From Bordetella genomosp. 4 (lineage in GTDB: Bacteria > Pseudomonadota > Gammaproteobacteria > Burkholderiales > Burkholderiaceae_B): 64,000 nt of DNA. A program made the position numbers and the translations under genes. Positions 41,447 to 44,793 of this stretch are shown here, one piece after another. The stretch is from NCBI RefSeq assembly GCF_002261185.1, contig NZ_NEVQ01000001.1, positions 62,001-126,000 of the forward strand. Direction: 5' to 3'. The notes below the pieces were generated by a model. It did not search any database, was not told where the DNA came from, and saw only the letters and a list, made by a program, of their open reading frames with translations. Every line of letters starts with the position of its first letter. Within the stretch, counting starts at the first letter, position 1.

Positions 41447-41494
41447 TATGATGGGGTTGTTGTTCCTGGTATGGGCGAAGTAGGTTCTTTTGGC

Positions 41495-41777
41495 GGTGAG
41501 GTGGGGGAATGGAGAGGGAGGGGCTTCACGTGGTCGGTCGGCCGCCTGCGCGTCCGACACCGCTTCGTCAACCTCGTCGCTACGCTCCTTCGGTTTCCCT
41601 CGCTCGACCACGAGGCGCCCCTCCCTCTCCATTCCCCCACCTCACCTCACAGAATCTTGGATCGCTGCATTGCTGGGACGACTATTTTGCTTAGGCTTCG
41701 TAGGGGAGAACGTGCCAGAGAGAAGGAGTTTGCCGGGCTGTTATCCGCGGGCGCCTACGGGCGCGCCCGCCGATAAC
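41495..41777 (+). repeat. Composite double-hairpin repeat, copy A
   Basis: A large hairpin comes first: 30-bp perfectly complementary arms (41495-41524 and 41617-41646) around a 92-base loop. After a spacer of about 93 bases containing TTGCTTAGGCTTCGTAGG comes a small hairpin: 15-bp arms (14 pairs) at 41740-41754 and 41763-41777 around the loop CTACGGGC. Copy B at 43409-43693 is the same structure in reverse orientation. The large loop is about 90 percent identical and the small loop identical, but the arms differ between copies while staying self-complementary. Short open frames inside it are not credible genes. Confidence 0.85.
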
Positions 41778-41824
41778 GATCGGGAGTCGATCAGTTGAAG
41801 GGAGGTGTGGCGGCACTTCGGGAA

Positions 41825-41840
41825 TGTTTCACGTGGAACA
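41825..41840. other. parS: parS site 3
   Basis: TGTTTCACGTGGAACA, one mismatch from consensus and identical to the form at site 6. Confidence 0.9.
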
Positions 41841-42043
41841 TAGCTAGAATTGCCGCGAAGCTCTGGAGTACCGAGAAAGGACTACCCCTTGCTGTTCATG
41901 AGATTTAGCGATCATGAGACAACGCCTGGCACTATGTTGTGGTGCGGATTTAACCGCGCGTGTGGCCTACTCCGCGGCGAATATGTCCCGTAAAACCAAG
42001 ATAACGGCGGACCAGCGCGCTAGTCGCATCTTCGAATAGCGAA

Positions 42044-42059
42044 TGTTTCACGTGAAACA
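42044..42059. other. parS: parS site 4
   Basis: Perfect TGTTTCACGTGAAACA in a stretch with no credible gene. Confidence 0.95.
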
Positions 42060-42146
42060 CGGGGACGTTATATTCGCGAAGCGATAGATCCCAAGACAGC
42101 ACCTCTCGTTTTCTTAGCTCTATGTCGGCATACAGATGGGTTCTGC

Positions 42147-42162
42147 TGTTTCACGTGGAACG
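42147..42162. other. parS: parS site 5
   Basis: TGTTTCACGTGGAACG, two mismatches from consensus, with the central TTTCACGTG core intact. Confidence 0.8.
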
Positions 42163-42639
42163 TCAATCAATATGGCGAAAAGGGTTTTGCACGGCGGGAG
42201 GGGTGCCATCGGTACGAGTACATTTTGAGTCCTAATGCCCCATCAGCTCGCTATGAGTGGCATCTGCAACGCCGGTATCGGTACTTTTCGCAGAAGGATA
42301 GCTGTCCATCCGGGCAACATCAGACGGCATCTCACCCTATATGGAACCCGTGCGAAGGGTGCCTGCATTTCGACAGAAGCTTAATAAATGCCCTCGGCCT
42401 AGAAGATGCCCCTTTTCCGAAAGAAATCAACGGCAAATACTGGACAGGAAGAGCCTAATCGCGACAATCGCTGCGGCAGAAGAACCCACGTTTATGGCTG
42501 TCCCTTAGTACATACTGGTTTATTACGTCCAGATATCTGGCAAATCATTCCCCATAATCCATACTCAGTGCTGGTATTGGTCAAGAAATTAGGCAGAGCC
42601 GGAGCGCTTCCCAACGGTTGGGCCGGCTCATTGGTGCGC

Positions 42640-42655
42640 TGTTTCACGTGGAACA
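42640..42655. other. parS: parS site 6
   Basis: TGTTTCACGTGGAACA, one mismatch. Between sites 5 and 6 and on to about 43.08 kb I see only short unconvincing open frames. Confidence 0.9.
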
Positions 42656-43100
42656 ATCCACGAGAGCGGAACGAGGGTCGCAGTGCTTAACCTCCGGATG
42701 AATGCGGAGCTCCCCCTGCCCTCTGTCTCTCTATTGACTCCCGGGCCTAAGTAGCCTGTATTAACGACATGACGAGCCACACATAGCACATCGAGCAAAC
42801 GCCCAAGCCACAGACAGTGATAGGCAGCATCACCGCAAACTACCCGGGCCAGCGCCCAGAGCGGAGCAAGATGCCACAGCCGATATCGAGAGCTACGATC
42901 ACAATGCTATACACCACCAGAGAAGCACTCGCGCCACTCTCAACCCCCGTCCTCGATACCGAACCACGCCCAGGATCGCATATCCTTCCGCAAAACACAC
43001 GCATCATCCGCCTCCGAGCCAGCCCTCCCCAGGGGCAACTACAGGCCCCAGAACTCGCCACAGCACCCGCTTAGGCCCCCGCTAAGCAGTCCTAGTCCAT

Positions 43101-43289
43101 TGCATAGTGCCTTGCCTGATCCCCTGCGTGATCCTTTGCCTAATCCCGTGCCTAGTCCTCTGCCAGTCTCCTGTCTGGTCCCCTGCTTGGTTCCTGCCTA
43201 GTCCCTTATCTAGGTTCTTGCCTAGCTCCTTATCTGTGCCTCGCGTAGCCCGTTGCCTAGCGTGTTGCCCAGCTCGTACCTAACCTTCC
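43101..43289 (+). repeat. Degenerate 12-bp tandem array, about 16 units
   Basis: Successive 11-12-base units approximate the consensus TGCCTAGTCCCT. Clear units begin at 43101, 43113, 43125, 43137, 43149, 43195, 43219 and 43254, with weaker ones between. A fainter unit precedes the array. Units are too diverged for a recent expansion. It lies between parS site 6 and repeat copy B, about 420 bases left of the first DnaA box. Iteron-like protein binding or a relic satellite are both possible. Confidence 0.7.
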
Positions 43290-43408
43290 AATCCCTCTTC
43301 ATGCCGCTTTCCCACGCCTCTACCGGCTAAGACCCATCTCAAAGTTAATCCAATTAACTCGTCAAGATCCCGCACCACCTCACAGTTGTCCGCGCCCGAG
43401 TTTTCCAA

Positions 43409-43693
43409 TTGCTAGGGTTGGGCGCGCCCGTAGGCGCCCAACCCTAGCAACCCTGCAAGATATTCCTCCTTGCCTCACCTCCTCCTACGAAGCCTAAGCA
43501 AGACAGTCCCGCCGCCGGTGTGGCAGCACGAGATAACGCGAGTTGGGTGGGGGTGGAAGCCGTGTGGGGGCGCTTCGTGGCCGAGCGAGGGAAACCGAAG
43601 GAGCGCAGCGACGAGGTTGACGAAGCGGTGTCGGACGCGCAGGCGTCTGACCGGCCGCGTGAAGCCCCCACACGGCTTCCACCCCCACTCAAC
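43409..43693 (-). repeat. Composite double-hairpin repeat, copy B
   Basis: Mirror-oriented copy of the element at 41495-41777. The small hairpin comes first on the plus strand: perfect 17-bp arms at 43409-43425 and 43434-43450, loop GCCCGTAG. A 91-base spacer carries the complement of TTGCTTAGGCTTCGTAGG. The large hairpin follows: 30-base arms at 43542-43571 and 43664-43693 with 29 pairs, loop 92 bases. Loop length equals that of copy A, and one stem position at the loop base is T-A in A and C-G in B. It ends 13 bases before the first DnaA box. Confidence 0.85.
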
Positions 43694-43854
43694 GCCAGAA
43701 GAACTCTTATCCACACGCGACAAACACCTCCCACCCGCACACAGCCCACGAACCGCATCCGAACAACTATCCACACCCTCTTCCCCACAACCCCACTCAC
43801 TAAACGTTATCCACAAACCCCCACCGCACACGAAACCCGAAACTACTCACCCCC

Positions 43855-43954: not shown

Positions 43955-43982
43955 ATAAAAAAGCCGAGTTGAATAACTCGGC
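43955..43982 (-). terminator. Orphan intrinsic terminator inside the origin region
   Basis: A perfect 8-bp stem GCCGAGTT/AACTCGGC with a GAAT loop, followed in the leftward transcript by TTTTTTATTTC. No annotated gene ends here: the nearest leftward gene is the cold-shock gene about 600 bases upstream, which has its own hairpins. An unannotated small RNA or origin transcript may end at this point. Confidence 0.7.
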
Positions 43983-44507
43983 CTCTTATTCGAAAACAAA
44001 CTCTCATCAAAACACCGGAACCATCCTTCCGACCCTGATAATCACAACTCTATCCACAAATAATCTCGCCCCTTAGAAAACCCAAAATCCCATAAAAAAC
44101 CCTCACATAACCCCTGGGGATATCTTTGTGAACAACTGAGCTTTCGCCCCCCGAATTCTCATCATGCGACCTACGAAAATATTGGCCTTGATGGAACCTT
44201 TCCCGTGAACTCGTCACAGGCTTGCCGCCTTAACCCTTGAAAAACCACGCAAAAATGCCCCGGCGTGAATAAACCGAATAACAATCAGCCTCGATAGCCA
44301 GATCACTATGGGTCAAGATATCTATATAGTATTTCTGTGCAAAACCCAGATTTCGCGCCAGTGAGGCCCCCTATCGCTCCAAACTCCCCCAATGCCGGAC
44401 GAGGGCCTTATCCACAAACTTATTCCCAATATTATCCACAGACCATAGCCCCACAGTTATCCCGGCCAGTCAGCTTGCTGAGCGCAGTTTCACCCGTACA
44501 AATGCGA

Positions 44508-44586: not shown

Positions 44587-44793
44587 TTAAAGCGGGCGAA
44601 TCTCGGCCGCTTGAGGTCCTTTCGGACCATCCTTGACTTCGAACTCCACTTCCTGGCCTTCGTTCAGGCTGCGATAACCGCGTCCCTGAATAGCCGAGAA
44701 ATGTGCGAATACATCCGTACCGCCAGCGTCCGGCGTAATAAAGCCGAAACCCTTATCGGCGTTGAACCATTTGACTTTGCCCTTCTGAACCAT
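44587..44793 (-). CDS. Cold-shock protein (CspA family)
   Basis: A 68-residue single OB-fold nucleic-acid chaperone with RNP1 (KGFGFI) and RNP2 (VFAHF), the W of VKWFN and no extra domain. It melts RNA secondary structure. Single gene with its own promoter and a leader of about 90 bases, shorter than the long cold-inducible leaders of E. coli cspA. Whether it is cold-induced cannot be told from this. It bounds the origin region on the right. Confidence 0.96.

Follow-up and report, generated by a model that had tools for sequence, protein, structure and literature searches.

The locus examined here raises a simple question: are the two large inverted repeats found next to the chromosome origin of Bordetella genomosp. 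4 a feature of that region, or are they representatives of something more widespread? The window, i.e. the whole stretch of 64,000 nucleotides that was analysed, contains copy A (41495-41777, plus strand) and copy B (43409-43693, minus strand), each consisting of a large hairpin (LH), a spacer and a small hairpin (SH). Our analysis revealed that A and B belong together as halves of a non-coding element that is dispersed through its own genome (G000, hereafter the source genome), where they form one copy among many.

Re-reading of the sequence and recounting of the arm pairs confirmed the coordinates and anatomy given in the preliminary description (Table 1). Half of the 28 positions of the 5' arm (14) are different between A and B, and each of these 14 has its counterpart altered in the 3' arm, where the only further change is the mismatch of B. 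The T-A pair at the base of the loop in A, said to be C-G in B, is indeed so in alignment A1 (columns 41/128), but an unpaired C.A is present in B three pairs away (columns 38/131). The hairpin script found 73 hairpins but not copy B, which was added to A1 by hand. The large loop proved to be conserved as claimed (89 of 96 nucleotides identical between A and B), but it is not a plain loop, being a folded core with further helices. The 8-base loop of the SH is identical in both copies. Hairpins with a score of at least 17 never appeared in 20 first-order Markov simulations of the window, against six in the real window; A and B are the top-scoring of these six, and the others include the parS-site pair and two ordinary-looking hairpins. 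RNA folding of copy A was far more stable than that of shuffled sequences on both strands (z of -7.9 and -8.4).

Table 1. Features of the two halves and their positions in the window
Feature	Positions	Strand	Remarks
Outer motif of half A, GGTTCTTTTGGC type	41482-41494	+	see TTCT(T/A/G) motif counts
LH of half A: variable 28-bp arms, fixed GCTTCAC/GAGGCGC step, folded core	41495-41646	+	arms 41495-41524 / 41617-41646, 30/30 paired
Spacer of half A	41647-41739	+	contains GCTGGGACG (41672-41680) and the shared 18-mer (41687-41704)
SH of half A	41740-41777	+	14/15 pairs
SH of half B	43409-43450	-	17/17 pairs
Spacer of half B	43451-43541	-	contains the shared 18-mer (43484-43501)
LH of half B	43542-43693	-	arms 43542-43571 / 43664-43693, 29/30 paired
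Outer motif of half B, GCCAGAAGAACTC, reverse complement of GTTCTTCTGGC	43694-43707	-	

Searching the source genome with copy A returned 46 matching pieces. With R1, a covariance model built for the LH, 75 LH places reached at least 87 bits (rows counted by hand), three of them partial. Of these 75 LHs, 38 are arranged as 19 inverted pairs with less than 1 kb between the partners, A/B not counted; the 37 LHs for which no pair was detected stand alone, lie at the end of a contig or have a partner of a different type. The usual unit has the order LH-spacer-SH, a centre of about 200 bp, and SH-spacer-LH, with a total length of about 0.8-0.9 kb; in many copies the inverted partner within the unit, a few hundred bases off, is more diverged. 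Near-identical units occur at several sites, as a 3.2-kb query with the L128 unit matched seven other places in the source genome over at least 880 bases with 90-94% identity.

The composite nature of the element was examined by counting its parts in the source genome, in other Bordetella genomes and in genomes of other genera, with LH orientation set from short motifs and hairpins of unclear orientation dropped. The TTCT(T/A/G) motif occurs ahead of the LH in 33 of 67, 22 of 33 and 25 of 40 cases, respectively, compared with 1, 0 and 1 for its reverse complement, used as control. An SH lies inward of the LH in 51 of 67, 29 of 33 and 13 of 40 cases (outward control 0, 3 and 0). A GCTGG.ACG-like motif within the 185 bases beyond the LH is found in 60 of 67 cases in the source genome versus 6 of 33 and 5 of 40. 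On these counts, the evidence for the composite is good in Bordetella and partial elsewhere.

Variant units were also observed. In some of them (L002, L005, L016) the second LH is replaced by a second class of long hairpin, GAGTTCCTGCC..arm..GTTGAG..GCGATAG..arm..GGCAGG.ACGTC. In L034 the second LH is without a core and its arms meet as a perfect 48-base palindrome; the core was apparently lost by deletion between CCGGCCGG repeats, and a similar core loss was noted in L039 and L040. In G000, contigs C1, C2, C3, C4, C5, C9, C10, C11, C12, C14, C15, C17, C18 and C21 carry the element no more than about 800 bases from one end or from both. This position at contig ends suggests that the repeat probably broke the assembly, and the element would account for the breaks in assemblies of genomes of this kind.

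The arms of the LH, 28 bp long and mostly of the form GTCG...CGAC, are followed in Bordetella by the fixed GCTTCAC/GAGGCGC step. The core of 96-108 nt contains a helix of 7 bp, a hairpin of 9 bp and a third helix, which varies in length. The arms differ between copies and between species while staying paired. Among 46 distinct LHs, standard pairs make up 97.2% of 2391 cells, and 41 of the 53 pairs show changes on both sides at least once. Double-changed cells numbered 496, compared with 131 (sd 8.5) in shuffles, and pairing fell to 37-42% when the partner was slid by 1-3 columns; in these figures related copies are counted several times, and the unslid version is favoured by a structure drawn from the same 46 LHs. 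The helices within the core covary too. Only five cells carry a one-sided standard change, and one arm pair has decayed in L057 (G002). The combination of a conserved core with a covarying stem, proposed from A and B, therefore holds on 46 copies, in which no pattern of uncompensated arm changes was found. Intergenic bacterial DNA here provides a natural example of stems that covary almost perfectly, at 75 places in one genome, and it makes testable whether selection or hairpin-templated repair preserves long palindromes, and which strand is concerned.

A covariance-model search among relatives, suggested at the outset, gave matches in the source genome, in all Bordetella genomes examined and in further genera of the family. 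R1 was built from 46 LHs of the source genome and relatives, and matches to these are true by construction. A plain sequence search detected the element in the source genome and in seven of eight other Bordetella genomes, and in none of 52 genomes of other genera. At E <= 0.01, R1 matched all nine Bordetella genomes (up to 150 candidates scored per genome), with nothing but weak or short forms in G004 and G001. With up to 14 candidates scored per genome, at least 35 of 200 genomes and 11 of 43 genera of the family were positive, the nine Bordetella genomes included; in the sample of the order, at least three of 200 genomes reached E <= 1e-8, each of them a member of this family. Since R1 rests largely on pairing, with reverse-strand self-matches at about 70 bits, weak matches may be other hairpins. 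The core is nevertheless recognisably alike in 15 loci of other genera read by eye, which are not merely long hairpins. An insertion in the LH core was found in G013, from another genus. A short LH form of 105-111 nt, without the third helix, was placed by its positions in G001, G002, G003, G004, G005 and G008, and read in sequence for G001, G004 and G005. A 21-base motif of the element gave seven stretches, all in Bordetella (including Bordetella genomosp. 2, genomosp. 7 and B. petrii); a 35-base pattern gave no match in the genome contigs searched.

Comparison of orthologous sites revealed both persistence and gain or loss. LHs with differing arms occur at five groups of orthologous flanking genes, each group having LHs in at least two of the Bordetella genomes. 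Where the neighbour is a K+ transporter gene (Pfam), the arms in G008 depart from those in G003 through matched changes, together with a few that affect one side only. The gap beyond thiC contains LHs in the source genome, G002, G003 and G006 and also in G223, which belongs to another genus; in the source genome (thiC identified by Pfam) the LH is on the other gene's side of the gap, and in G007 the stretch read contains no LH. Some sites, for example the thiC gap, look old, as kept functional sites would. At one convergent gene pair, whose left gene encodes an FAD/Fe-S oxidoreductase (Pfam), the unit is present in the source genome and G007 and absent from G001 and G004, where 92 and 126 bp, respectively, separate the matching pieces. 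At the same pair G003 and G008 have gaps of 202 and 235 bp with other hairpin repeats inside, G002 and G005 have longer gaps, and in G006 the flanks are on different contigs. No target duplication or exact junction was readable at the filled versus empty sites, the flanks being too diverged. The idea of an element that inserts is supported in part, by presence in two species and absence in two at one orthologous pair and by the near-identical units scattered in the source genome; no mobilising enzyme was found.

The hairpin repeats in the oxidoreductase gap of G008 (L184) and G003 (L185) belong to another family, GGTGTCTGAC..GTCAGACACC, which also occurs in L057.

For the analysis of genomic location, a cluster was defined as any long hairpin with a loop of at least 60 and a score of at least 22, overlapping loci being merged and an LH core not being required. 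Genes were called with a codon-usage script, which missed the 68-aa cold-shock gene of the window, and 21 clusters with no called gene on one side, including the two halves in the window, were left out. The 73 clusters with genes on both sides comprise 53 between convergent, 17 between tandem and 3 between divergent genes. The other gaps of at least 60 bp at the same loci (n=79) comprise 11 convergent, 41 tandem and 27 divergent. G223 is an exception, with five convergent and eight tandem clusters. The LHs lie just beyond stop codons: the 3' end of the outer gene faces 110 of 128 LHs, at a median distance of 53.5 bp and within 130 bp in 102 cases. The 5' end of the outer gene faces the remaining 18, and A itself faces the 5' end of mnmG. 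The elements are candidate barriers between convergent genes, which is open to test.

This location is what would be expected if the element were a domesticated bidirectional terminator or mRNA protector, in which each LH-SH half serves the gene transcribed into it and selection on the mRNA keeps the stem. If each half serves one gene, a convergent pair calls for an inverted pair. The proximity to stop codons, the predominance of convergent gaps, the other hairpins carried by G003 and G008 in the same convergent gap and the very stable fold on both strands all favour such a role. However, no T run follows the LH or SH of A or B in the sequence read, as an intrinsic terminator would have, and the LHs that face a 5' end, including that of A at mnmG, do not fit.

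The mismatches in the arms also argue against selection on the mRNA. When the arms alone were read on the strand running from the outer gene inward, 2688 pairs in 91 distinct arm pairs contained 51 A.C, 10 G.T and 19 other mismatches, related copies being treated as independent; with the fixed internal T.G step included, the count becomes 51:51. The ratio of A.C to G.T is 9:1 in the source genome, 15:3 in other Bordetella and 27:6 in other genera, and smaller sets gave 21:7 and 36:7 (the latter without the fixed internal T.G step). Pairing in the mRNA would be expected to leave G.U on the gene strand, the reverse of what was found. Since A.C mismatches are G.T or G.U on the opposite strand, the constraint seems to act on the strand antisense to the adjacent gene, and it is there that pairing seems to be kept; an asymmetry of mutation or repair could also lie behind the bias. 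Taking both sides together, the terminator or protector role is a possible but doubtful explanation.

A second interpretation gives more weight to the constrained strand. The LH may represent a family-wide structured single-strand element with a branched core, a stem of near-fixed length and free sequence, kept pairing, halves that are mostly inverted at gene ends and constraint on the antisense strand, acting as an ssDNA substrate of a nuclease or transposase or as paired outward-running RNAs. We put this forward tentatively, as a minority view. No description of such a class was found in the literature searched, most subscription papers being outside the search.

It is improbable that the elements are neutral palindromes without function, whose arms are kept complementary by template-switch correction during replication alone. 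Correction of quasipalindromes by template switching is described in E. coli and yeast in the parts of the sources available (PMC7202029; PMC3820800), and the five one-sided changes against 496 double-changed cells are what such a process would leave. However, correction alone leaves unexplained why the arms have their length, why the folded core is conserved, why there is a spacer and why the halves are paired in inverted orientation and sit at gene ends; the covariation of the core helices also speaks against it.

An element of the chromosome origin is hardly credible, despite the position of A and B around three of five exact parS sites and the DnaA-box-like sites beyond B, as an LH lies upstream of mnmG in only two of nine Bordetella genomes (the source genome and G001), the other copies read lie elsewhere and the A-B spacing of about 1.6 kb is atypical of the unit. 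In the region upstream of mnmG, G006 and G007 carry other long hairpins and the remaining five genomes have no comparable hairpin. A special meaning of the placement by oriC and parS, as hinted at earlier, is not supported, and the placement looks like a local event. The statement that A and B flank parS is correct for the three sites between them, but the other two lie outside A, on the mnmG side.

The explanation that we favour is that A and B are inverted halves of a dispersed palindromic non-coding element of the REP/BIME/MITE kind, but much larger; taken as a whole, with its modes of spread, single-strand recognition and arm upkeep, this explanation stands just on the probable side. An enzyme would spread the element as a whole unit of about 0.9 kb. 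What is recognised or kept would be a hairpin formed by a single strand, the one antisense to the adjacent gene, whether as ssDNA or as an RNA running outward; the tolerance of G.T and G.U mismatches on that strand would then be explained. Each arm would mutate after dispersal, and its partner would be re-matched by selection for pairing, probably helped by hairpin-templated correction or template switching; the near absence of one-sided changes suggests such correction. The element would be tolerated by the genome, and the flanking genes may benefit from it as a structure at their 3' ends. Counted against this explanation are the lack of a transposase in the PF01797 search of the source genome, G003 and G007, the lack of a readable junction, the old-looking sites, the 37 unpaired LHs of 75, the placement in G223 and the possible asymmetry of mutation or repair.

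Comparison with known families was carried out for RNAs and for repeats. At the gathering score, Rfam identified only tRNAs in the window. A known RNA family was rejected, the permissive Rfam matches being mostly miRNA-precursor families, far below their cut-offs and many on both strands. The earlier statement that the repeat matches no known repeat family is in line with the Rfam result at gathering score, but it needs to be qualified, as Bor-1 and Bor-2 have been catalogued in Bordetella (PMC2267715). According to the available parts of their descriptions, these are intergenic stem-loop repeats; the Bor-1 model has 117 nt with 196 copies (92 complete) in B. bronchiseptica and 93 nt with 128 copies (78 complete) in B. 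pertussis, and the Bor-2 model 167 nt with 17 copies (6 complete) (PMC1590033; PMC2267715). The element resembles them as an intergenic stem-loop repeat whose short LH form measures 105-111 nt, whereas inverted pairs, covarying arms and placement between convergent genes do not figure in the parts of the descriptions available. Compared in this way, by description only, the element perhaps overlaps the published Bor-1, and Bor-1 and Bor-2 may be parts of it.

REP and BIME sequences with GTAG or CGTC tags are described, in the part of the source available, as intergenic palindromes that often form head-to-head dimers and lie near 3' ends, for the most part where the flanking genes are convergent or tandem; a REP measures 20-40 bp, its stem has 5-13 bp and its loop is small (PMC3733652). 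The element is likewise palindromic, dimeric and near convergent 3' ends, but it differs from REPs in its stem of 28 bp, its core of 96-108 nt and its copy-specific stem sequence. Its arms mostly start with GTCG, often after C (CGTCG), but this GTCG is itself paired. The RAYT domain (PF01797), expected in a genome with GTAG REPs, is present in six of nine Bordetella genomes and was not found in the source genome, G003 or G007, all of them rich in the element, while G004 possesses PF01797 and has only weak element matches. A RAYT/REP system was rejected on the basis of the absence of PF01797 from the source genome.

MITEs, i.e. ERIC, NEMIS/Correia and the like in the part of the source available (PMC3733652), are similar in being non-coding, dispersed, able to fold and near genes, with inverted ends; the outer motif and LH are inverted at both ends of the unit, as terminal inverted repeats of a MITE are. 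The element differs in that no target duplication or partner transposase was found (PF01797 being the only one searched) and in its interior of two composite hairpins. A candidate autonomous copy, the far-apart LH pair L150 (G223), was rejected, as the translations read show that it encloses apparently ordinary metabolic genes. The Beta-proteobacterial repeat element (BRE), as far as the source was available, is about 90 bp long, mostly intergenic and present in Bordetella, in tandem and in variable number, with eight copies in B. pertussis Tohama I, and occurs also in Polaromonas and Rhodoferax (PMC3110155). Both are repeated, mostly intergenic and found in Bordetella, but, compared by description only, the neighbouring LHs of the element are inverted and not tandem, as in the 19 pairs of the source genome. 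No description of such hairpins in Bordetella or Achromobacter was recognised in the literature covered, most subscription papers being outside the search.

Several minor features were observed in the window and upstream of mnmG. Just inside B, at 43090-43290, there is a run of diverged short units of the CCTAGTCC..TTGC type, which is not present in the other units read. The first gene to the right of B is the cold-shock gene (44587-44793, minus strand; Pfam), and between the two lie TTATCCACA sites and, at 43960-43990 on the minus strand, a terminator-like hairpin followed by T. The second class of long hairpin also occurs in L178, 1.24 kb upstream of mnmG in G007. In G006 (L179), the region 416-746 bases upstream of mnmG holds a very long inverted repeat with 76-base arms and a 179-base loop; ahead of this repeat stands a GGTTCTTGAG motif that resembles the outer motif of the element.
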